This document shows positions 1,546 to 57,022 of a stretch of DNA of 64,000 nt, one piece after another. Both the position numbers and the translations under genes were made by a program. The DNA comes from a virus. Below the pieces are notes generated by a model. It worked only from the letters and a program-made list of their open reading frames with translations, searched no databases and was not told where the DNA came from. The stretch lies in IMG/VR virus record IMGVR_UViG_3300040770_000152, positions 1 to 64,000 of that record; one strand, 5' to 3'. Positions within the stretch are counted from its first letter, which is position 1. Each line of letters opens with the position of its first letter.

Positions 1546-3291
1546 ATGTCTAATAAAATAGGTTTACAAGTAGAGGAGGGAGTAACTAAGGGATTTAGTT
1601 CTTTAGTAGAACCTTCTAAGCGTAACATAGGCGTACTTATGGCTAGGCTACGAGGTGTCGCTAATTTACCAGTACTTTTATCATCACTAGAAGAAGATAG
1701 AAGTGTTTTTGGTGGCTTTTTAGCGGGTGCTTACGGATATGCAGTCATTAAAAATATGTTCAGAAATTCCCGTGGTTATACACCTAGTATCTACGGTTTA
1801 AGAGTTGTAGGTGCAGGTTCTTCTGTTGCTCAAACTACCCTAGATGTATCAGGTCTGTTCTCTTTAGAGGGTACTGCTTCTTACATGGGTTCCGAAGATG
1901 TAGGTTCTTGGGGTAATGACTTAGCTGTAATTTTGTACCCTAAGGGTATTAAATCCGCAGGTAAGTGGTACTTTGAGGTTTTGTACAAAGGTAGAGTTGT
2001 AGAGAGCTACTCTTCTGCTCTTATTTCAGAAATAATTGCACAAACTCAGGAGTCTAAATTTGCGGTATTTACAAGTGCTACAGATTTTACTGTTGCTGAA
2101 AATTCAGAGTTGGCTAAAAGTTTTGACGGGTTAATTAGTGTAGGTTTATCAGGTCTACAGACAGCTAATGGTTTTCTGTTAACTACTATACCAGTAGACT
2201 TCGTAAATCCAGTAGGTTTTGTTCTTTTAGATTCTAAAGGAAGTAAGATCGGTACAGTGGCTACTTTTAACGTAGGTACTAAAGTTGGTACACTGGTGGA
2301 TGTTGCCCTAGTTAGTGGAAACTTAAATGGTGCTACTTTCTTAACGGATGAGGCTTACACAGCTAATTTTACTGGTGGGGTTTATGTTGCGCCCGTGGAA
2401 AGTGATTTCTATGGTAGAACAACTGAGACTGAAAAAATGGGTCTAGACCTATTTAAAACGGAAGATGTTCAGATTGTTATGAACACGGAATTCCACACAA
2501 ACTCTATGGCTATAGAAGGTAAAGCTTTTGCGGAAGATAGTGATGTTTTGTACGTAGCTAACTTACCGGAAAACGCTAATCTAGGCGTTGCTCAAGATTT
2601 CGCTAATTCTTTACAGACTGGTACAGTTTCACATATAGCTGTTTACCATGGTTGGGCCAAGACTATTGTTGACGATGTTAACTCAGGTTATGTTCCCGTT
2701 ATCGGTTGTGTTATTGGTGCTGGGTACGTTCGTGCTACAGGTATGCAAGGAGATTTTATTCATATACCACCAGCAGGGGTAGATTCTGCTTTTAGTGATA
2801 TTTCTGAGGTTAAAGGAGGTAAACTTTCTCAGGTAGAGATTGACCGTTACGTTCAAGACTTTACAGTTAACGTTGTTAAGTACCAGATCGGTTTGGGTTA
2901 CTTTTTGATTAGTTCTAGAACTATGTCAACAAATGCTCTTTACCACTCAATCCACATAAGACTACAGACTAGTTTCTACAAGAGAGTAATTAGTGAGAAC
3001 TTTAACTGGGTATTACAGAAACCTAATACTCCAGAGCTTAAGCGGTCTATCTACTCTTCTTTATTTACTTATTTTAGAAATGAGTACAATAACGGAGCTT
3101 TAGAAAATTCCGTTCCTTTTACTACGGCTTGTGTTATTATTGTAGATAAACGTAATAATCCAGTAGGTCAAGATAGAAAATTGCTTAACACTGATATTGA
3201 TTGGATCCCTACAGAAGCTACGGAGTCTGTTAGAATATCTATGAACAGAAATGATGGGCAATTATTGTTAAATGAAGTAACTACAAACTAA
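1546..3291 (+). CDS. Contractile tail sheath protein
   Basis: This is the polymer that contracts around the tail tube to drive DNA injection. At 581 residues it has the size of a T4 gp18-class sheath. The conserved C-terminal domain (about 440-581) shows the SRTMSTN segment near 457-463, a YFRNEYNNGAL helix and the VIIVDKRNNP strand near 530-540, followed by the handshake-type terminal strands. Sheath then tube in adjacent genes is the canonical myovirus order. The start follows an A/T-rich leader, aattaattttacttattaattATG in outline, which is typical for Bacteroidetes translation. It opens the tail operon. Confidence 0.93.
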   Translation: MSNKIGLQVEEGVTKGFSSLVEPSKRNIGVLMARLRGVANLPVLLSSLEEDRSVFGGFLAGAYGYAVIKNMFRNSRGYTPSIYGLRVVGAGSSVAQTTLDVSGLFSLEGTASYMGSEDVGSWGNDLAVILYPKGIKSAGKWYFEVLYKGRVVESYSSALISEIIAQTQESKFAVFTSATDFTVAENSELAKSFDGLISVGLSGLQTANGFLLTTIPVDFVNPVGFVLLDSKGSKIGTVATFNVGTKVGTLVDVALVSGNLNGATFLTDEAYTANFTGGVYVAPVESDFYGRTTETEKMGLDLFKTEDVQIVMNTEFHTNSMAIEGKAFAEDSDVLYVANLPENANLGVAQDFANSLQTGTVSHIAVYHGWAKTIVDDVNSGYVPVIGCVIGAGYVRATGMQGDFIHIPPAGVDSAFSDISEVKGGKLSQVEIDRYVQDFTVNVVKYQIGLGYFLISSRTMSTNALYHSIHIRLQTSFYKRVISENFNWVLQKPNTPELKRSIYSSLFTYFRNEYNNGALENSVPFTTACVIIVDKRNNPVGQDRKLLNTDIDWIPTEATESVRISMNRNDGQLLLNEVTTN

Positions 3292-3292
3292 G

Positions 3293-3742
3293 ATGGCAAA
3301 ACCAACTAGAGTAAAAGATTTATATGTTCAGAATGGGTGGTACTTGGAATTTCCAGGTTTAATTTCACCCCATTTTGAGACATTGGAGGGGTTAGCTAGA
3401 ACCTCTAATAGTGTGGAAATAGTAGATGGGGGAACGAATAAGAAACACAAATTCGGTTCTCAAATTCTTGATTTTTCAGACATGACACTTACAAGAACTA
3501 TGCAAGGAACTGTTGAGGATAAGACGTTACACGCTATAGCTGACGATATGATTTTAAGAGGTCTACGTTTGCCAGTGATAGCTGTAAAGTTACATCACCA
3601 ACAAGAAGTTTTTAGAATTCTATTTGAAGAGTTTAAAATTAATAGTCAAAATTTACCTAACTTTGACGTTAACTCAGAAGATAAATTCACAATCAGTTAT
3701 TCAGCAAGTTGCTCTGATTGGGACATTCTTTGGGCAGTGTAA
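3293..3742 (+). CDS. Tail tube protein (gp19-like)
   Basis: This is the inner tube through which DNA passes. The 149-residue product has the size and beta-rich pattern of the T4-like gp19 tube family, including a central TRTMQGTVEDKTLH segment. It begins 1 nt after the sheath stop, so expression is presumably coupled. The call rests on size, fold pattern and position directly after the sheath and before the chaperone pair. Confidence 0.85.
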   Translation: MAKPTRVKDLYVQNGWYLEFPGLISPHFETLEGLARTSNSVEIVDGGTNKKHKFGSQILDFSDMTLTRTMQGTVEDKTLHAIADDMILRGLRLPVIAVKLHHQQEVFRILFEEFKINSQNLPNFDVNSEDKFTISYSASCSDWDILWAV

Positions 3743-3779: not shown

Positions 3780-4664
3780 ATGACTAAATTAGGACTAAAA
3801 TTTGACTTAAACATTGGCTTGAAAGTTAACGGAGAAACGGTTAAGGAGGTTGAACTTCTTACCTCTAATTCTGTAGCTGAGGAAGTCTTTACTAGAAAAT
3901 TATCTCAAGAACCTTTTACTTGGATAGGAAACGTTATTTCGGTAGCTGTAGGATCAATAGGGGAAACTAGAATTGCGGAAGCTGTACGCCAAGAATATTT
4001 TAAGACAGGTAAAGTTACCATTCCTAAAATTGTTCGGGATATATCTTTTGCAGATGCTAATAGTTTGTTACTAGAAATTCACAGAAGAGTTTGGCAGCAC
4101 AAATTTGATAGCATGGAAACCATGTGCCGTTACTGCGCCAAAAGTATCGAGGTCGATGTAGACTTGAATAATATAAAGCTAACAGAAGAACAGGAACTAA
4201 TTTTGGAGACTACTCCAGAATTTAACGGTATAGCAGTAGACTTAACTCCTTTCAGTTTAGACTCTTTAATTAAGGATTTAAAAGGGGAGGAGGTTTCTAC
4301 GCTATTAGGTACAACTTTTAATAGATTTACCTACCGTATACCCACTTTAGGGGATGCCATTAAAAATCAGGACTACTTTGACAGAAACATTGAGTTGTGG
4401 AGACGCATAGGTGCTGATTGTTTAGTATCTATACAGAAAGTTGATGAAGAGGGAAATGTAGTTGCGGATATTCCTGAGAACTACATTCGTTTCCTTTCCA
4501 TTAAACTTTACAGAGATATGGATGTGGCTAACCTTAAAAAAATTAGGCACGCTTTACGTGAAGAGCTTCCAGTACTTCCTTTTGCCTACATGGATAGTTG
4601 CGCTTGTGATAGTAGAAGAAAGATACCTTATACTCTAGAGAGTTCGGGTTTTTTTTCGGAATAG
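3780..4664 (+). CDS. Tail assembly chaperone, zero-frame product
   Basis: A 294-residue protein between tail tube and tape measure, the position of the tail assembly chaperones (gpG in lambda). It contains a CRYC pair near residues 117-120 and a CAC near 275-277 that could bind zinc. The gene ends in a run of eight T at 4649-4656, immediately before the TAG. The -1 frame is open from that run through the next short gene, which makes this the upstream half of a frameshift pair. Its sequence is not obviously gpG-like, so function is inferred from position and the frameshift. Confidence 0.72.
   Translation: MTKLGLKFDLNIGLKVNGETVKEVELLTSNSVAEEVFTRKLSQEPFTWIGNVISVAVGSIGETRIAEAVRQEYFKTGKVTIPKIVRDISFADANSLLLEIHRRVWQHKFDSMETMCRYCAKSIEVDVDLNNIKLTEEQELILETTPEFNGIAVDLTPFSLDSLIKDLKGEEVSTLLGTTFNRFTYRIPTLGDAIKNQDYFDRNIELWRRIGADCLVSIQKVDEEGNVVADIPENYIRFLSIKLYRDMDVANLKKIRHALREELPVLPFAYMDSCACDSRRKIPYTLESSGFFSE
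4649..4656 (+). other. Programmed -1 ribosomal frameshift site (T8 run)
   Basis: The zero frame reads GGT TTT TTT TCG GAA TAG, so a T TTT TTT heptamer lies exactly in X XXY YYZ phase. Slipping back one base gives TTC GGA ATA GCT CTA and stays open to the TAA at 4931-4933. This fuses about 292 zero-frame residues to 92 more. A -1 frameshift between the two tail chaperone genes is conserved in tailed phages. Confidence 0.8.
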
Positions 4665-4933
4665 CTCTAGGTTGGGATTACCCACCGAGTTGCTTATTAT
4701 CTGGGAAGAAAAACGAGCTATTCATAGATTGGTTTATAAGCAATATGTTTTATACCTTTCCTATAACAAGGGAACCAAGACTGTCCCTCGAAGGATTGCA
4801 ACACTTCCTTCTTAAAAGGATACAAGGGTTGGACTACGAGAGTTTAATGTTTATGAGTGTAGAAAAACGGGATGCTTTCTTTGAAGATGAGTATGCTATT
4901 TACCAAAAAGAATTAGAGCAATCTAACAAATAA
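4655..4933 (+). CDS. Frameshift extension of the tail assembly chaperone (gpT-like part)
   Basis: In the -1 frame relative to the upstream gene, this 92-codon stretch is uninterrupted from the slippery T-run. It begins FGIALGWDYPPS and continues into the segment starting at the ATG at 4745, which alone would encode only 62 residues. The fused product would be about 384 residues. The extension is acidic at its C terminus (DEYAIYQKELEQ). It sits 10 nt before the tape measure, matching the gpG/gpGT arrangement. The 4745 ATG could also be used separately, but the open extension back to the T-run argues for frameshifting. Confidence 0.75.
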   Translation, partial: FGIALGWDYPPSCLLSGKKNELFIDWFISNMFYTFPITREPRLSLEGLQHFLLKRIQGLDYESLMFMSVEKRDAFFEDEYAIYQKELEQSNK

Positions 4934-4943
4934 ACATTAAAGT

Positions 4944-6980
4944 ATGTCTGACGGAATAAGAGAAGTTGATAATGGTTTAGCTTACGATTTTGGTGTAGCC
5001 ATTGCTAGAGGCGCAGCAAGTTCTTTAGCTGTTATGGCAGCACAGGTTGTAACAATCACTGGAAGTATTTACGCACTTATAGATGCAGGTAATACTTCTG
5101 ATAATATGCTTAGAAGAAACCAGTTGGCTATGGGAGGTTACGCTAATTTCCTAAAGTCAGTTGACTACTTCTCAGAAAAAGTTATATCAGGTCAAAGTTA
5201 CTTTGATGTAGAAAACCTAATGGAAGGTTCCAAGGCTCTACAGAGTGCAGGTATAGATGTAAAGAAAAATTTTGATTTAATCAATAAGTCTGCTCAAGGT
5301 ATTGGGTCAGACTTTTCTGCATTGTCACAAATAATAAAAAACGGGGATTACTCTGCTCTTGCTGAGGCAGGTTTAATAACAGAACGTATGGCTACCAATA
5401 TGGAGCGCACTACGTTTACACAGGAGCAAGGTACTAAACGTGTTTTGGCTTTACTTAAACAAGCTGATACTAAAGGTCTATTTTCTGGAAATATTGCTAC
5501 ACTGGGTCAAACTATTGAACGGATAAGGCAAATATACAATCGATTCATGGAGTCAATACTTGGAGATTTAAAAGATCCCGAGGGTTTTTGGTATATACTT
5601 AAAAAGGCCTTTTCTGATTTTGCTGACTTTTTTGCCAAACGTATGGACAAGATAACCAAGATCGGTAACATACTAGGTAAAGTTTTAGGCTTCATAGTTC
5701 GTACGGTATCGGGATTCATGCGTTTCATGGGTAGAATGTTACAGAAAGTTTTAGGTAACAATGACGAATTTTTTTCTAACTGGCAGGACAAAATGCTGTC
5801 TTTTGGTTTATGGTTAGAAATACTTAGAGTTAAGATAGGTGCTTTTTTCGAGAGTTGGGGACCGCTTATTGTAAAGCTGTGGTTATTTAACTCAGCACTA
5901 AACGCTGTTTGGATGATTGGTACTAAATTAGCCAGTATTAAAAAAGCCACTTTTATTGAGGCATTAACTAAGGGTGGTGATTGGTTGAAGGGTTCAGGTT
6001 TCGCACGTTTAGGTTCTTATATTCAAACTGTTCTTATACCAGCTATAACTACTATGGGAGGTTCTGTTTGGTCGGCACTTGCGCCCGTTATAGTTACTGT
6101 GGGTATAATAGCGGCAGTAGTGGCAGCACTAGTTTTAATAGTGGCTTACTGGGATGAGATAAGAGGTTATGCAAACCAGACTTCTAATTCTACTTTAGTA
6201 CTGTTAAATTTATTCCTGCCTATTGTAGGTTTAGTTCTTACTATAGCTAAATACTGGAACGAGATAAAAACTATTGCTACTAACGTGGGTAGAGTTTTAC
6301 TTAATTACATAGATATATTAATGTCCGTTTATAACATTATAGGTAAATACCTTTGGGGAGGTCTTAAAAATGTGTTTAACTGGTTAAAAGGTATACTTAA
6401 GAGTGTTAATGTTTGGATGTCTAATACTTTTGGCTCTGCTTGGACTACATTTAAGTCTATATTTTTTGACCCTATTAAAAGCGCCTTTATGTGGATAAAA
6501 GATTTGATTGGTAACTTATTTGATTTCGACTTAGGTGCAGGATTTAATAAACTTATTGAGTGGACTAAATCTGCGGCTGATGGTACTAAAGAAGTTGCTG
6601 ATAACTTAGCTAAAAAGTCGGGACGTGCTGGTTTTGCTAAGGGCGGTGAAACGCTTAAAGTTAATCAGAAGAAAGAAGTTGCTAAATTAGTAGCGCAAGG
6701 AAAAAGTGATACTGAAATTGCCACCTTAATGGACAATGGTAACTTCGATAAAAATATGATTTCCCAAGAACGCCAGAATGCTAAAGCTACTAAACCTATT
6801 AAGAGAATTGCTCAGGTTCCTACCAAGATCACCAATAGTAACAGTAGTGGTGGAAACGTTCAAACGAATACGTACAACATTTACGTTAAGAACGAGATGG
6901 ACGTTGAGAAAGTAGTTAAGGCTGTTGAGCAGACAAATAAAAAGCATGCTGATATAAATAATAGACGTAAAGGTAATTAA
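4944..6980 (+). CDS. Tail tape measure protein
   Basis: Sets tail length and is ejected with the DNA. The 678-residue protein has the usual composition: a helical N-terminal half, amphipathic stretches, and hydrophobic segments at about 381-402 and 417-437. These are followed by Gly-rich and Lys-rich helices and a polar tail. The rule of thumb of about 1.5 angstrom per residue predicts a tail near 100 nm. It lies directly after the chaperone pair and before the baseplate genes. No lysozyme or peptidase domain is evident. Confidence 0.88.
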   Translation: MSDGIREVDNGLAYDFGVAIARGAASSLAVMAAQVVTITGSIYALIDAGNTSDNMLRRNQLAMGGYANFLKSVDYFSEKVISGQSYFDVENLMEGSKALQSAGIDVKKNFDLINKSAQGIGSDFSALSQIIKNGDYSALAEAGLITERMATNMERTTFTQEQGTKRVLALLKQADTKGLFSGNIATLGQTIERIRQIYNRFMESILGDLKDPEGFWYILKKAFSDFADFFAKRMDKITKIGNILGKVLGFIVRTVSGFMRFMGRMLQKVLGNNDEFFSNWQDKMLSFGLWLEILRVKIGAFFESWGPLIVKLWLFNSALNAVWMIGTKLASIKKATFIEALTKGGDWLKGSGFARLGSYIQTVLIPAITTMGGSVWSALAPVIVTVGIIAAVVAALVLIVAYWDEIRGYANQTSNSTLVLLNLFLPIVGLVLTIAKYWNEIKTIATNVGRVLLNYIDILMSVYNIIGKYLWGGLKNVFNWLKGILKSVNVWMSNTFGSAWTTFKSIFFDPIKSAFMWIKDLIGNLFDFDLGAGFNKLIEWTKSAADGTKEVADNLAKKSGRAGFAKGGETLKVNQKKEVAKLVAQGKSDTEIATLMDNGNFDKNMISQERQNAKATKPIKRIAQVPTKITNSNSSGGNVQTNTYNIYVKNEMDVEKVVKAVEQTNKKHADINNRRKGN

Positions 6981-16840: not shown

Positions 16841-17416
16841 ATGAAGGAACTAACCAACGACAATAGGGTTGAAAAAATAGCAGAACACTTTAAAGAGATT
16901 ATGTTATTACTAGGCTTGGATCTACAAGACGATAGTTTAAAAGATACACCACTAAGAGTTGCTAAGATGTATGTTAATGAGATATTCAGTGGTCTATTTA
17001 CTGAGCAGCCAAAGCTTACTTCTTTTGAAAACACTAAAGGTATAGATCAAATAGTTATAGTTAAAAATATTGAGATGACTTCTGTTTGTGAGCATCACTT
17101 TATGCCCATAGTAGGTAAAGTTCATATAGGTTACATACCTGATGGTAAAGTTTTAGGTTTAAGTAAGTTTAATAGAGTTGTACAATATGTTTCTGCTAGA
17201 CCCCAATTACAGGAACGCATTTTACAAGACATACACGGTATACTTACTCCACAGTTAGGAGAAAATATTATTATAGTGGCTGAAGCTGTCCACTTTTGTA
17301 GTTGTATGCGAGGTCCTAAAGATATGAGTTCTGCTACTGTCACTTCTTTAGCTACGGGTATGTTCCGTTATGACAAAAGTGTTAAAGATGAATTTTTTAA
17401 ACTTCTAGGCAAATGA
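16841..17416 (+). CDS. folE: GTP cyclohydrolase I
   Basis: Converts GTP to dihydroneopterin triphosphate, the first step of preQ0 synthesis. The 191-residue protein carries the zinc ligand motif CEHH at 83-86 and His151 and Cys153 in HFCSC. The IGYIPDGKVLGLSKFNRVV region near 97-114 and the terminal RG at 157-158 also fit the family. In this phage it should feed QueD, QueE and QueC encoded 26-31 kb downstream. It shares an ATGA overlap with the next gene. Confidence 0.93.
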   Translation: MKELTNDNRVEKIAEHFKEIMLLLGLDLQDDSLKDTPLRVAKMYVNEIFSGLFTEQPKLTSFENTKGIDQIVIVKNIEMTSVCEHHFMPIVGKVHIGYIPDGKVLGLSKFNRVVQYVSARPQLQERILQDIHGILTPQLGENIIIVAEAVHFCSCMRGPKDMSSATVTSLATGMFRYDKSVKDEFFKLLGK

Positions 17417-26513: not shown

Positions 26514-27929
26514 ATGGTAAAAGAATTCGTCATAGACTTATTTTGTGGTGCTGGAGGTACAGCTACCGGAATACATTTAGCTAATTGTGATAGTGAGGTA
26601 GTTGCTTGTGTTAACCATGATGCCAAAGCAATAGAAAGCCATAAACTCAACCACCCTAAAGCTGTACACTACACAGAGGATATTAGAAATCCTGAGGTAG
26701 TTGCCAAATTAAAAATACAAGTGCAAGAACTAAGGTATAAATACCCACTATGCGTAATTACTATTTGGGCAAGTTTGGAGTGTACTAATTTTAGTAAAGC
26801 CAAGGGCGGTTTGCCTAGGGATGCTGATAGTCGTACACTTGCGGAACACCTTAATATGTACGTGGAAGCTATTAATCCAGAATACCTAATGATTGAAAAT
26901 GTACAGGAGTTCATGAGTTGGGGTCCTTTAGATACTTTAGGTAAACCTATTAGTCGCTTCAAGGGTTCTGATTATACTGCTTGGGTAGACAGTATTAAAA
27001 AATATGGTTATGATTTTGACTATAGAATACTAAATTCAGCTGATTTTGGTGCGCCACAGTCGAGGAAACGTTACTTTTCTCAATTTGCTAAAATTGGTAT
27101 GCCTATAGAGTTTCCGTTGCCCACACACAATAAAAAAGGAACTGACGGACTTTTAAAACATTCGGCCGTTAGACACGTTTTAGATTTGACTGATATTGGA
27201 GCGTCCATATTCAATCGAAAAAAGTTGCACGTAGAGAACACACATAAAAGAATACTTGCGGGTCTAAAAAAGAGCGTAGTTTCTACAGATAAAGATTTTC
27301 TAACTACTTATTACGGTAGTGGAGCTTGTGTACATTCCGTTGATAGACCCAGTCCTTGCCTGACAACTAAAGACAGGGTTGCTAAGGTTCATTTTTTAAT
27401 GCTTAGTTACACTACAGGTGATAACGTTAAAGATATAGATGGTCCAGCAGGTACAGTAATGGTAAATGATAAGCACAATTTTGTTACCGCAGAACACTTT
27501 GTTTATAATCCTCAATACAAGAATACAGGCAGTAGTATTGAACGCCCTAGCCCTACAGTAATTGCTAGACAAGATAAAGCGCCACTTTATTTGATTAGTT
27601 ACGTTTTTGATAGTGAGTTGAAGATACCTATTTATGAGACAGACAATCCTACGTTAGTTAAGATCAAAGAATTCATGGCTGCTAATGGTATTGTAGATGT
27701 TCTTATGCGCCTTTTCTATGTTCCAGAGTTATTAGCAGTTCAAGGTTTCCCCAAAGATTACAAATTAGTAGGTACTTTAGCAGAACAGAAAAAGTTTATA
27801 GGTAACGCAGTAGAGACTACTATCGCTAAAAAACTATTCGAGGCGCACTCTAGTTCTATCGACTACTTAAGATCTTTAGACTCTGCCGTGCTAAGAACTA
27901 TGCTTTGTACTAATTTAATAATTGGATAA
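26514..27929 (+). CDS. C5-cytosine DNA methyltransferase-like protein with altered motif IV
   Basis: A 471-residue member of the C5 methyltransferase family. Motif I is DLFCGAGG (8-15), motif VI is ENV (128-130), and motif VIII is QSRKRYF near 177-183. The late motifs VQGFP and IGNAV lie near 410 and 430. The usual catalytic PCQ.FS is replaced by LECTNFS, keeping the nucleophile Cys90 but not Pro or Gln. The variant may change the modification or target chemistry. Function is probably self-protection of phage DNA. The region between VIII and IX is long and could be the target recognition domain. Confidence 0.85.
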   Translation: MVKEFVIDLFCGAGGTATGIHLANCDSEVVACVNHDAKAIESHKLNHPKAVHYTEDIRNPEVVAKLKIQVQELRYKYPLCVITIWASLECTNFSKAKGGLPRDADSRTLAEHLNMYVEAINPEYLMIENVQEFMSWGPLDTLGKPISRFKGSDYTAWVDSIKKYGYDFDYRILNSADFGAPQSRKRYFSQFAKIGMPIEFPLPTHNKKGTDGLLKHSAVRHVLDLTDIGASIFNRKKLHVENTHKRILAGLKKSVVSTDKDFLTTYYGSGACVHSVDRPSPCLTTKDRVAKVHFLMLSYTTGDNVKDIDGPAGTVMVNDKHNFVTAEHFVYNPQYKNTGSSIERPSPTVIARQDKAPLYLISYVFDSELKIPIYETDNPTLVKIKEFMAANGIVDVLMRLFYVPELLAVQGFPKDYKLVGTLAEQKKFIGNAVETTIAKKLFEAHSSSIDYLRSLDSAVLRTMLCTNLIIG

Positions 27930-43476: not shown

Positions 43477-44157
43477 ATGGATTCGATTCTACTATTTTCG
43501 GCGGGTAAGGAAAGTCTATACCAGTTACACCATAAACAAAAAGTGATAGGCAAACTTATTATGTTTGACTACGGACAACTTTCTTTTCCAGCAGAGTTTA
43601 CCTCACTTAGGTATTATGCTAAACTTTACGATAAACCGTATCAGGTAATCAAACTAGACTTCTTTATTTTACCACCAGCAATAAAAGATGGTATTGACTG
43701 CAATCCTTACGTAGCGCAAAGAAATTTAGTTTTTTGTAGTATTGCGCTATCTCTTGCAGAAGTAGGCGGTTATAAGAAAGTATTTTTAGGAGCCGTAGCT
43801 GATGCAGTAGATTTCGATGGTTCTCCAAGATTTGTAGATGATATGAATTACCTACTAGCTAGTAGTAGTGTAAAAGTCGAAAGTTTTTCTCGTAGGTATA
43901 CTACAGGACAGATACTTGCTTCCCTAGTAAAAAATAAAGTAGACATATCCCACCTTTGGAGTTGCGATAATCCCAGAGATGCACCTACATTTTGTGGATC
44001 TTGTGCTAAGTGTACTAGTGCTTTAAGAAACCTCAGAGACCATTATTCCAATAATAAGTTAGTTAGAAAATTCTACGACCAGAAATATAAAAATTCGGAC
44101 ATCCTAAATGTTTTAAGTTATGAGTTTGGACAGGAGCAAAAAATATGCGAGCGATAG
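43477..44157 (+). CDS. queC: 7-cyano-7-deazaguanine (preQ0) synthase QueC
   Basis: Converts 7-carboxy-7-deazaguanine to preQ0 with ATP and ammonia. The 226-residue protein has the PP-loop SAGKES at 8-13, the NPYVAQRNLVFCSIALSLAE region near 76-95, and four zinc cysteines at Cys163, 173, 176 and 179 (FCGSCAKC). The loop departs from the common SGGxDS but keeps the Ser, Gly and terminal Ser. Overlaps dpdA by 38 nt, supporting joint function. Confidence 0.88.
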   Translation: MDSILLFSAGKESLYQLHHKQKVIGKLIMFDYGQLSFPAEFTSLRYYAKLYDKPYQVIKLDFFILPPAIKDGIDCNPYVAQRNLVFCSIALSLAEVGGYKKVFLGAVADAVDFDGSPRFVDDMNYLLASSSVKVESFSRRYTTGQILASLVKNKVDISHLWSCDNPRDAPTFCGSCAKCTSALRNLRDHYSNNKLVRKFYDQKYKNSDILNVLSYEFGQEQKICER

Positions 44158-45076
44158 TAATAAGGATAAGGCAGTAATGTTTTTTTCCGCTTCCTCTTAC
44201 AAGGATGCTCTAGCAGTACTAGATTCAGGTATAAATGATATTCTTACTTCCTACCACTATATAATGAAGCGTGAAAAAGGTTTCACTGAAGACGTAATGC
44301 CCCGTATAAAAGCTAACGGAGGTTTATTTATGACAGATAGTGGTGCGTTTACTTTCTTTGCTAAACCTACTCCTGAGATGTACACCGAAGAATACTGGGA
44401 ACCCTATATTGAAGAGTACGTTAAGTTTCTACGAGATAACGCTCACCAAATTTATTGTGCGGCTAACATGGATATTGATATTTTTGTAGGTCAAGAAATT
44501 GTAGATCGCTGGAACAAAAAGTATTTTGAACCTTTAAAAGGTATTGTTCAGATAGTTTACATTGTGCATGGTAATAAAGCTATACGTAGAGATGATGAAT
44601 ATGGAATAAAACGCTTTAAAGAATACGCAGCTAAATATGAATACTTAGGTATGGGTTCTTCTATGTTTAAGAAAAACTCTCGTTCAGACAACCGTTACTA
44701 CGCCCTTGCTAGGTTGCTTAAAGTTAGGCTACATGGTTTTGGTTGGACTTCTATTCCCTCTTTAAAAGAGTTTCCTTTCTTTAGTGTGGATTCAACTACT
44801 TGGCTTGGGGGTGTTCGTTATGGAACTACCTATACCTATGATGGTGCTAACGATAGAGTACTGGACCACAAGAAAAAATTTAGACGTAAGGGTATGAAAT
44901 CCTTATGTAAAGATTTAGGAATAAATCACGAAAACTTGTTATTAGAGAAGAGGGATGAAATAAATGCACTAAATTTGTATGGATGGAAAGGTTTTAGGTT
45001 TGAGTTTCTTAAGGCCGCCAATACTAAATTAAAGTATAACCCAGCACGTAGTTACGCTAAATACCTAGAAAAATGA
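44120..45076 (+). CDS. dpdA: DpdA-like DNA guanine transglycosylase
   Basis: Member of the TGT superfamily; DpdA proteins exchange guanine in DNA for preQ0. The 318-residue protein has MTDSGAFTFF at 71-80 with the catalytic-type Asp73. The YVKFL region, MDIDIFVG, VYIVHGN, MGSSMF and a W-rich FGWTSIPSLK..DSTTW end also fit the TGT barrel. It starts within queC. A DNA rather than tRNA target is inferred from the phage context and the presence of the whole preQ0 pathway. Confidence 0.85.
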   Translation: MSLDRSKKYASDSNKDKAVMFFSASSYKDALAVLDSGINDILTSYHYIMKREKGFTEDVMPRIKANGGLFMTDSGAFTFFAKPTPEMYTEEYWEPYIEEYVKFLRDNAHQIYCAANMDIDIFVGQEIVDRWNKKYFEPLKGIVQIVYIVHGNKAIRRDDEYGIKRFKEYAAKYEYLGMGSSMFKKNSRSDNRYYALARLLKVRLHGFGWTSIPSLKEFPFFSVDSTTWLGGVRYGTTYTYDGANDRVLDHKKKFRRKGMKSLCKDLGINHENLLLEKRDEINALNLYGWKGFRFEFLKAANTKLKYNPARSYAKYLEK

Positions 45077-45988: not shown

Positions 45989-46827
45989 TGCCTAGAAAAA
46001 GTAAACGTTTAGAAGAAGCAATAGTATCTGTAGAGGAAGTATCTCCAGAATTACTAGATAAAACACCTAAAAAAGAAGTCTCCCTTATACTTAAGGAAGG
46101 GGAGTTTATGCATGACCTAGTTGGTGAGATAACAGAAGTTGAGGACTTACGTAATGTTGTCTGTCCTTTCTACAAAAACGGTAGAGCTGTTAAATGTATA
46201 GGCTGTAAAAAAGAAGATGATATTGTAGAAGGTTGCAAGGAGGAACTAATAGCCGGTTTATTACGTAGACCTACTTACGGACTTTCGGGAGCCTTTTATG
46301 ATACTGCATTTGATTTGCCCATAGTGTTACCTAGGGTAGCAAAAGTTTCTGTATTAGACACAGTAGCAATGGGATTGATTTGTAATACTTGTCACGTTTC
46401 AGACAATTGCCCACTTTATGTAGAGAATCATGAGTGTGGTATTGACTGGAAAGAGGGAGTAGACACCACAGACACAAAAGCTGTCTTAGGCCACATGATT
46501 GACTTACAGATGCAGCGCGTTACTCGTGCTAGAAATATGGAGTTAATCGATGGTGGTATGCCTGACCAAACCACTTCGGGAGAAATGGATCGCCTTACGG
46601 GTCTTATAGGTATGAAAGACAACTTGGATGCTGACCGATTTTCTGTTCGTATTGATGCCAGTAGTAAGAGTGGTAGCGAAGGCGGCGGAATACTCGCTAA
46701 ACTTTTCGGAGGTGGAGGTAGTGGTAGTAATACCGAGAATCTCCCTGAGTTAGAAGCTAAAACAATTGATTTTGAAGAACTGGAAGTAAAACCCGCTACC
46801 AAAGATAAAAGAAAAAAAGATGAATAA
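45988..46827 (+). CDS. Cys-rich unknown protein, 279 aa
   Basis: A charged N-terminus is followed by a metal-binding-looking region. Cysteines lie near 59 (VVCPF), 70-73 (CIGC) and 82, then CNTCHVSDNCPLY..HECG near 132-150. Eight or more cysteines could hold zinc or an iron-sulfur cluster. The last 70 residues are Gly/Ser-rich and acidic, so probably disordered. It overlaps queE by 8 nt and the oxygenase by one base. No family recognised. Confidence 0.66.
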   Translation: MPRKSKRLEEAIVSVEEVSPELLDKTPKKEVSLILKEGEFMHDLVGEITEVEDLRNVVCPFYKNGRAVKCIGCKKEDDIVEGCKEELIAGLLRRPTYGLSGAFYDTAFDLPIVLPRVAKVSVLDTVAMGLICNTCHVSDNCPLYVENHECGIDWKEGVDTTDTKAVLGHMIDLQMQRVTRARNMELIDGGMPDQTTSGEMDRLTGLIGMKDNLDADRFSVRIDASSKSGSEGGGILAKLFGGGGSGSNTENLPELEAKTIDFEELEVKPATKDKRKKDE

Positions 46828-47560
46828 GTTAAGACTAAACACTATCTACATTACCTATCAAGGTGAGGTAAACCATTTCGGAATCGGTACTCCCGTAATC
46901 TTTTTACGTTTACAAGGATGTCCTATTCGTTGCTACAAAGATACTATGGGTGTTCTTTGTGACACTCCAGAGGCTTTAGAAAAAGGTACTAGCAACTCTC
47001 TTGAGGTTACTGAAATAGTAAACCGATTAAAAGACGTTAAGAAGTACACAGGAATTAATCTTATCTGTTTAAGTGGTGGAGACCCTCTTTGGCAGAATAA
47101 GGAATCACTACATGATTTGTTTCAGCAGTTAGAGGCGAATAAATTTAATGTGAGTGTTGAGACTTCGGGAGTAATATCTATAAAACCTTACAGTAAGTAC
47201 AAGAATGTTTTTTGGGTAGTTGACTATAAATTATTGTCTGCAGGTGTAAAGACAGATTTCCATAAAGATAACTACGCTACCCCTGAGGGAACTATTATAA
47301 AATTCGTTGTTTATGACGAGGCTGATTTAGCTGAGGCTATACACATATATAGACTGGGTGTGTTTAGTTTAAATACTAAATTTACTTTTGGTTTATATTG
47401 GGGAACTACAAAAATCACTTACTCCGAATTAACGGGTCGCCTTGTACGGGAGAATATGTTAGGCCTAGTAGGGGTAAATTTCCAAGTACATAAAATGGCT
47501 GAGTTTTATGACCAAAACAGTGTAGCTGCCCATGAAACAGTAGTTAGAGCTAAAATTTAG
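46820..47560 (+). CDS. queE: 7-carboxy-7-deazaguanine synthase QueE
   Basis: Radical-SAM enzyme turning 6-carboxytetrahydropterin into 7-carboxy-7-deazaguanine. The 246-residue protein has TYQGEVNHFGIGTPVIFLRLQGC before the cluster motif, and a LSGGDPLW segment near 89-96 and VETSG near 113-117 as expected. Cluster cysteines are Cys34, Cys38 and Cys47 (CPIRC.......LCDT). The gap to the third Cys is longer than the classical CxxxCxxC, an insertion of about six residues. QueC, QueD and FolE are all present. Confidence 0.86.
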   Translation: MNKLRLNTIYITYQGEVNHFGIGTPVIFLRLQGCPIRCYKDTMGVLCDTPEALEKGTSNSLEVTEIVNRLKDVKKYTGINLICLSGGDPLWQNKESLHDLFQQLEANKFNVSVETSGVISIKPYSKYKNVFWVVDYKLLSAGVKTDFHKDNYATPEGTIIKFVVYDEADLAEAIHIYRLGVFSLNTKFTFGLYWGTTKITYSELTGRLVRENMLGLVGVNFQVHKMAEFYDQNSVAAHETVVRAKI

Positions 47561-47633: not shown

Positions 47634-48068
47634 ATGTTTACGGAATCCACTATCATTAAAGATTACCATTTTTATACTGCTCACAGGAACGAAAACTTAC
47701 GAGATAAATGTCGTAATATCCACGGACACACGTACTATCTAAAAATAGGTTTACGCTTTTTAACCTCTGAATTTAATGTAGAATCAGGTATTTACTTAAA
47801 CTTTAATGATGTGGATGCCCACATGGAACCTTTAGTTAAATCTTTAGATCATGCAACACTAGTATCTAAAAAAGATTCCCTACTTGTAGAGTGTGTTAGT
47901 CAATACCCAGATATTTTTGGCAAAATAGTTTTAATGCCCGAAGCTACTTCTGTGGAGAACTTAACACAATTTATTGCTAATTTAATACGTACAACACCGC
48001 TAGGTAAGAACCTAGCTTTTATATCAATTAAAGAAACAACCACATCGGAAGTAGTTCTTAACTTCTAA
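47634..48068 (+). CDS. queD: 6-carboxytetrahydropterin synthase QueD
   Basis: Converts dihydroneopterin triphosphate to 6-carboxytetrahydropterin. The 144-residue protein has YTAHR with His17, CRNIHGH with Cys26, His30 and His32, the FNDVD...LDHATL region, and PEATSVENLTQF near 98-110. These are the zinc and catalytic residues of the family. The 73-nt gap upstream holds a TAGGTTTG box (47590-47597) that may be a promoter, without a good upstream element. Confidence 0.92.
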   Translation: MFTESTIIKDYHFYTAHRNENLRDKCRNIHGHTYYLKIGLRFLTSEFNVESGIYLNFNDVDAHMEPLVKSLDHATLVSKKDSLLVECVSQYPDIFGKIVLMPEATSVENLTQFIANLIRTTPLGKNLAFISIKETTTSEVVLNF

Positions 48069-56710: not shown

Positions 56711-57022
56711 ATGAAAGCAATGTACAACGCATGGAAAGAGAGTGACAACGTAATAGCAGTGGATGGCGGTTTTAAAACTCAATGCACTCAATACACGATA
56801 ACGTTCACGGAAGATGAATTGAGAAAATACTACTTGCAAGAGTATGGCAGGGATGATGATGCTACTATTTATAGCTTGAAGTGTGACTATTACCACAAGG
56901 AGTTTCCTACGTTGGAAGCTTTGGTGGCTGACTTCTACGGTAGCGGTATGGACCCTAGTTATGAGGTTACCAAAAATGGTCGTGGAATTGGAGAATTACT
57001 AGAAGATTTTTTAACTTATTAA
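56711..57022 (+). CDS. Unknown protein, 103 aa
   Basis: 103 residues with a central TITFTEDELRKYYLQEYGRDDDATIYSL segment and an acidic end. Preceded by a gatagaaattATG leader. No motif recognised. Confidence 0.68.
   Translation: MKAMYNAWKESDNVIAVDGGFKTQCTQYTITFTEDELRKYYLQEYGRDDDATIYSLKCDYYHKEFPTLEALVADFYGSGMDPSYEVTKNGRGIGELLEDFLTY

Follow-up and report, generated by a model that had tools for sequence, protein, structure and literature searches.

A conserved in-phase slippery heptamer and a predicted -1 frameshift fusion in T4 gp26-type tail genes

The window analysed here, a stretch of 64,000 nucleotides from an IMG/VR virus record of 81,286 bases, represents part of the genome of a contractile-tail phage. 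Its tail gene block includes a gene, here termed X, and an overlapping -1 reading frame, termed Y, that lie between the tail tube and tape measure genes, the position occupied by G/GT-type chaperone pairs. The features of this region are as follows.

1546 to 3291, plus strand: tail sheath gene (phrog_23 match, 8.7e-9)
3293 to 3742, plus strand: tail tube gene (weak gp19 match, PF06841, 0.004, below cut-off)
3780 to 4664, plus strand: X, zero-frame gene of 294 aa encoding the unshifted product, T4 gp26 (PF12322) family
4646 to 4652, plus strand: second candidate heptamer, G GGT TTT, overlapping the first and also in phase
4649 to 4655, plus strand: slippery heptamer T TTT TTT, in phase, inside a run of eight T (4649-4656)
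4655 to 4933, plus strand: Y, the -1-frame part of the predicted fusion, 92 codons plus stop
4659 to 4723, plus strand: candidate stem just past the heptamer (4659-4667 with 4715-4723), not clearly above chance
4661 to 4663, plus strand: ATA, where six relatives carry ATG, the start within an ATGA overlap of stop and start
4662 to 4664, plus strand: TAG, zero-frame stop of X
4745 to 4747, plus strand: first ATG/GTG/TTG in the Y frame; a start here loses a conserved N-terminal part of Y
4944 to 6980, plus strand: tape measure gene, directly after Y (phrog_58 match, 6.5e-10)

By profile comparison X is a relative of T4 gp26 (PF12322), in agreement with a preliminary description of this DNA that had found the protein not recognisably gpG-like. 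The X of the window scores 19.2 bits against PF12322, for which the curated cut-off is 24.5 bits, and that of a close relative (L005) scores 27.6 bits, above the cut-off; X also matches phrog_150 (T4 gp26) weakly. Compared as a clade with 13 other gp26-type proteins, X gave an hhalign value of 97.5% (E 5.6e-12), in an alignment that runs through a C-terminal Phe-Phe, and Maribacter phage Colly_1 has an X that matches the clade with an E-value of 2.1e-6. The nearest named relatives are those of Bacteroides phage BS162P1 and of MT835482 (Bacteriophage sp.), a human faecal phage. A search of viral contigs with the single X protein gave no match, genome contigs searched with A3 and with the BRock X yielded no relatives, and the Colly X returned solely a near-identical genome; the exact DNA pattern TTTTTTYTCGGAATGA occurred in 22 stretches of viral contigs, four of which contain X (L015, L018, L021 and L030), none of them new. 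No match was obtained in a PDB sequence search with A6, nor at E <= 0.001 when a structure of X predicted by AlphaFold (mean pLDDT 66) was compared with the PDB by Foldseek.

The 3' end of X reads GGT TTT TTT TCG GAA TAG (GGT at 4647). As the preliminary description had proposed, the T run places T TTT TTT in frame (4649-4655), two codons upstream of the stop; the -1 frame, stated to be free of stops into the start of the following short gene, is indeed open from 4616 to 4933, across the X stop, with the short ORF (4745-4933) in the same frame; and the joined protein, estimated at about 384 residues, comes to 292 + 92 = 384. The heptamer was also correctly described as all T, yet it is not unique in this, the same being true of L004, L005 and RAS14. 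Between 4616 and 4745 the Y frame of the window holds no ATG, GTG or TTG, and the stop context is ATAG, with ATG absent, unlike all six close relatives. The T run is the sole A or T run of at least eight in the 64 kb window. Heptamers of the form X XXY YYZ within six codons of the stop number 12 among the 99 ORFs of 60 aa or longer on the plus strand; gene X holds two of these, T TTT TTT and G GGT TTT, followed by 92 and 93 open -1 codons respectively, and the next longest open -1 frame after a near-stop heptamer (ORF at 56711) extends for 71 codons. The heptamer by itself is unremarkable in a genome of 35% GC; its conservation is remarkable. Since it is not unusual in the window for an in-phase heptamer to lie near a stop, the case presented here is built on comparison.

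Close relatives were represented by four IMG/VR contigs and two GenBank phages, all spanning the junction (L006 ends before it). In each of the six, X ends in FFSE, encoded by NNT TTT TTY TCG GAA TGA, and Y, in the -1 frame, overlaps X by an ATGA; T TTT TTY TCG GAA is therefore found, with Y in -1, in all seven X genes that span the junction, including that of the window. The preliminary description had taken homologs with the two genes in unrelated frames and no slippery run as the observation that would tell against frameshifting; all six close relatives retain both the frame relation and the heptamer. Two of them (L004, L005) have a run of eight T like the window, and four (L002, L003, L007, L008) have six T interrupted by C. 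When the seven X genes were aligned, 78 columns were invariant in amino acid and capable of synonymous variation, only four of which use one codon throughout: AAT for Asn and, all within the slip-site block, TTT for Phe, TCG for Ser and GAA for Glu. Among the 42 columns with four- to sixfold degeneracy, Ser TCG is the sole single-codon column. The second Phe varies between TTT and TTC, at the last base of the X XXY YYZ pattern, where variation is permitted. This codon usage indicates selection on the slip site at the nucleotide level.

Conservation of Y likewise extends to the part that has no start codon in the window. When the window sequence was left out of a Y profile, the profile still matched the -1 frame of the window with an E-value of 5.5e-7 (next best, 1.3), in an alignment that begins about 23 codons upstream of the ATG at 4745. 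The segment upstream of this ATG, taken by itself and pooled with 999 shuffles, came third. These matches indicate that Y is conserved upstream of its sole usable ATG in the window. In BS162P1 (genes 40/41) and MT835482, X is 42-45% identical to that of the window and the heptamer type and frame are the same, but in both phages Y has an ATGA start and a conserved RNA stem follows downstream, two features that the window lacks.

A corresponding arrangement occurs in cyanophage-type gp26 genes, sampled as the best 80 of 570 confirmed loci. All 80 of these best-scoring genes end in T TTT TTC and then one variable codon before the stop, with Y in -1, and in all 80 the ATG of Y stands 5 nt past the first base of the stop; in P-SSM2 this Y is annotated as gp51. 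A codon alignment of 79 of them (L071, a 5' partial gene, was left out of the alignment and kept among the 80 junctions) shows a single codon in five of 100 invariant, synonymous-capable columns, and TTT TTC supplies two of the five. The second Phe is coded TTC without exception, whereas ten of the remaining 11 invariant Phe columns use TTT more often or exclusively. The codon preceding the Phe pair is AGT, AAT, TCT or GCT (Ser, Asn or Ala), always ending in T.

Among more distant gp26-type phages (L134 and L135, near-identical, were scored once; L136 ends before the junction) the expectation of a shared frame and slippery run held in part. The heptamer T TTT TTY is present in eight of 11 lineages with Y in -1, namely P-SSM2, KVP40, Atu_ph07, PA5oct, L134/L135, RAS14, Aer65.2 and SRB7757. 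The other three lineages with Y in -1 are Colly/Molly, in which the junction of Maribacter phages Colly_1 and Molly_1 has GGGTTTT instead (a GGGTTTT also overlaps the heptamer of the window), and LR756511 and Cygsa01, in which Y has an ATG and the heptamer is absent. No in-phase T TTT TTY was found at ten loci with Y in +1, which comprise four BRock-like Streptomyces phages, LR756508 (an uncultured 484-kb phage), GXN1, Mel-JY01, immuto, LIS04 and SP-15, the last five being phages of Streptococcus, Microcystis, Flavobacterium, Listeria and Bacillus. Fisher tests of heptamer presence, on rows that are not independent, gave p 0.0003 when 8 of 11 was compared with 0 of 12 (LIS04 and SP-15 counted apart) and p 0.026 when it was compared with 0 of 5 (the five T4-type phages counted singly). 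The ten +1 loci may form a separate +1 or -2 recoding group; the Y-like ORF is open through the X stop, usually has no nearby ATG and is sometimes unannotated. Its coordinates in the +1 (or -2) frame are:

L037, 3677 to 3919
L038, 2351 to 2608
L039, 2336 to 2593
L040, 2291 to 2593
L041, 3147 to 3449
L042, 3138 to 3506
L044, 2177 to 2467
L045, 2135 to 2440
L047, 2117 to 2425
L049, 2060 to 2383

Start codons for Y are scarce in several of the -1 lineages. No ATG, GTG or TTG occurs anywhere in the -1 Y frame of PA5oct or of SRB7757, and in the window, Aer65.2, L134 and Colly the first Y-frame ATG is deep within the -1 ORF. Two gp51-like -1 ORFs, at 1578-1757 in L141 (Aeromonas phage 65.2) and 2289-2525 in L050 (PA5oct), are missing from annotation because neither offers a usable start close to the stop of X.

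From these comparisons we regard it as highly probable that a -1 slip at T TTT TTT yields a minor X-Y fusion of a gp26-type assembly protein, comparable to gpG/gpGT, and the programmed -1 frameshift in a tail-chaperone-like pair put forward in the preliminary description is well supported by the relatives. Most ribosomes would terminate at 4662 to give X, a T4 gp26-type tail or baseplate assembly protein of 294 aa; some would slip by -1 on 4649-4655, bypass the stop and read Y, giving the 384-residue fusion. What the sequences show is the site, the frames, the conservation of the heptamer as nucleotides and of Y, and the occurrence of the arrangement in many lineages; the slippage, its rate and the minor product are inferred. 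The two products would share an N-terminal domain, and the minor form, with its extra C-terminal domain, would nucleate or guide assembly of the tail tube or hub around the tape measure, a chaperone role suggested by gene position and by analogy with gpG/gpGT. The fusion would then correspond to T4 gp51 and unshifted X to T4 gp26.

A rather improbable alternative is coupled reinitiation, in which ribosomes would restart on Y at the X stop, no fusion would be made, and the heptamer would reflect a conserved Phe-Phe end. The ATGA of all six close relatives and the ATG at +5 in all 80 cyanophage loci (best 80 of 570) fit this account, and Y alone is therefore possible in those phages; but the window has ATA rather than ATG, PA5oct and SRB7757 lack any start codon in frame, and in the window, Aer65.2, L134 and Colly no ATG occurs until far inside the -1 ORF. 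Also in favour of reinitiation, Phe-Phe is nearly invariant across gp26-type proteins (at least 90% of 13 rows), yet the frozen codons (TCG; TTT TTC) stand amid varying amino acids, and T4 and JS98 retain the Phe pair with different codons. It is less probable still, and indeed very unlikely, that the -1 product arises by transcriptional rather than ribosomal slippage on the run of eight T: this run, the longest A/T run in the window, recurs in L004 and L005, but four of the seven clade members (L002, L003, L007, L008) have six T broken by C and the cyanophage loci (best 80 of 570) are fixed at TTTTTTC; the conserved unit is the in-phase heptamer and not run length. A sequencing or assembly error that split one gene in the T run, conceivable in that homopolymers are error-prone and the source is an IMG/VR virus record, is refuted for the clade by the identical split and stop position in all six junction-spanning relatives, one with a named Bacteroides host, and has a negligible probability.

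Downstream stimulatory RNA structure is common in G/GT-type pairs and not universal, and it varied among the phages considered here. As a shared signal it was rejected for the window, where folding was not clearly better than chance: the candidate stem at 4659-4723 had z -1.63, with 14 of 200 shuffles equally low, and further calculations gave z -0.42 and, for the first 60 nt, z 0.11. No convincing stimulatory structure was found in Aer65.2 or SRB7757. The six close relatives have an 11-bp stem within Y, absent from the window, that starts 41 nt past the heptamer, a long distance for a classical stimulator; 64 of 66 cells are paired, with compensatory change at three pairs, and the stem is stronger than in codon-shuffled copies in five of the six (z -2.5 to -4.9; L005, -1.4). 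It is located as follows.

L002, 6906 to 6954
L003, 6906 to 6954
L004, 4906 to 4954
L005, 4909 to 4957
L007, 4912 to 4960
L008, 4909 to 4957

P-SSM2 has an 11-bp stem 5 nt past the heptamer (codon-shuffle z -3.67), which is the classical geometry, and the mean stem z of 14 sampled cyanophages is -3.3. The cyanophage stem-loop 5 nt past T TTT TTC overlaps the ATG of the annotated gp51 (L052, 2205-2235; the same place among L054-L133).

Comparison with T4 suggests how the two arrangements may be related. PF12322 is found in both T4 gp26 (208 aa) and T4 gp51 (249 aa), occupying residues 1-201 of the latter, and phrog_634, the family that the "gp51" ORFs of KVP40 and P-SSM2 (55-57 aa) also match, covers gp51 residues 147-246. 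X matches the gp26 profile group, gp51 combines a PF12322 domain with a C-terminal phrog_634 piece, and by this domain content gp51 of T4 resembles X and Y joined in frame. Y itself weakly resembles the C-terminal tail of gp51: Y of the window clade aligned with gp51 tails over an M..ER motif (hhalign 47%, E 2e-4), and Y of the window alone matched no PHROG profile, phrog_634 included. T4 obtains its two products from separate genes, with no heptamer in gp26, whereas the window has one gene and a slip site. A separate gp51 gene is present in T4, JS98, Ac42, kvi and 50AhydR13PP; the heptamer occurs in none of their five gp26 genes, the next gene in each case being gp25, a baseplate wedge subunit by annotation, and in T4 and JS98 the corresponding sequence is GAG TTC TTT, with Phe-Phe kept and coded TTC TTT. 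In a tree of 24 rows, midpoint-rooted and with long branches, the five gp51 and five gp26 sequences formed two sister groups within one clade (98/95), beside KVP40 and Aer65.2. Because these sister groups sit in a lineage whose neighbours keep one heptamer-bearing gp26, the simplest reading of the tree is that gp26 and gp51 are sister paralogs from a duplication inside the T4 lineage, and the absence of tail frameshifting in T4 is probably derived by this route. We lean, at somewhat better than even, towards a history in which the -1 frameshift in gp26 was the older T4-type state; T4 then duplicated the gene, gp51 becoming fused in frame and gp26 losing its slippery codons, and the phage of the window kept the ancestral arrangement and lost the back-up ATG. 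Under this ancestral-frameshift reading, T4 would not stand outside the G/GT rule, and in the phage of the window the loss of that ATG would make full-length Y wholly dependent on slippage.

Tail-gene frameshifting is a textbook case to which T4 is cited as the exception, and the E/E' tail gene frameshift of P2, a contractile-tail phage, likewise uses a T-rich slippery site, in a protein family other than that of X. One review describes G/GT-type tail frameshifting as widely conserved in long-tailed phages "except T4" (PMC5009743). The lambda gpG/gpGT system as given there shares with X/Y the slot between tube and tape measure, the -1 frame, a heptamer shortly before the first ORF ends and a short second ORF (PMC5009743); lambda gpG belongs to the gpG families, X instead to that of T4 gp26. 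No report of a gp26/gp51 frameshift was found in the titles and abstract openings of the mostly open-access literature covered, or in passages of PMC5009743 and PMC10885494, a silence that is not proof. If gp26/gp51 is an instance of this device, T4 gp51, which acts in hub assembly and carries a chaperone annotation, would gain the role of a "GT" partner; contractile phages from the sea and the gut and among the jumbo phages, probably in their hundreds, would make a fused tail protein now annotated as two genes or with its second half missing; and T4 would provide a clear case of a recoded gene replaced via gene duplication.

Elsewhere in the window we noted genes of the GTP cyclohydrolase I (16841-17416), QueC (43477-44157), radical-SAM-like (46820-47560) and 6-pyruvoyl-tetrahydropterin synthase (47634-48068) families. 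Judged by these family matches, the set looks like a 7-deazaguanine (preQ0-type) pathway, perhaps serving DNA modification; the stretch at 44120-45076, adjoining QueC, had no Pfam match. A C-5 cytosine-specific DNA methylase gene (PF00145) lies at 26514-27929.
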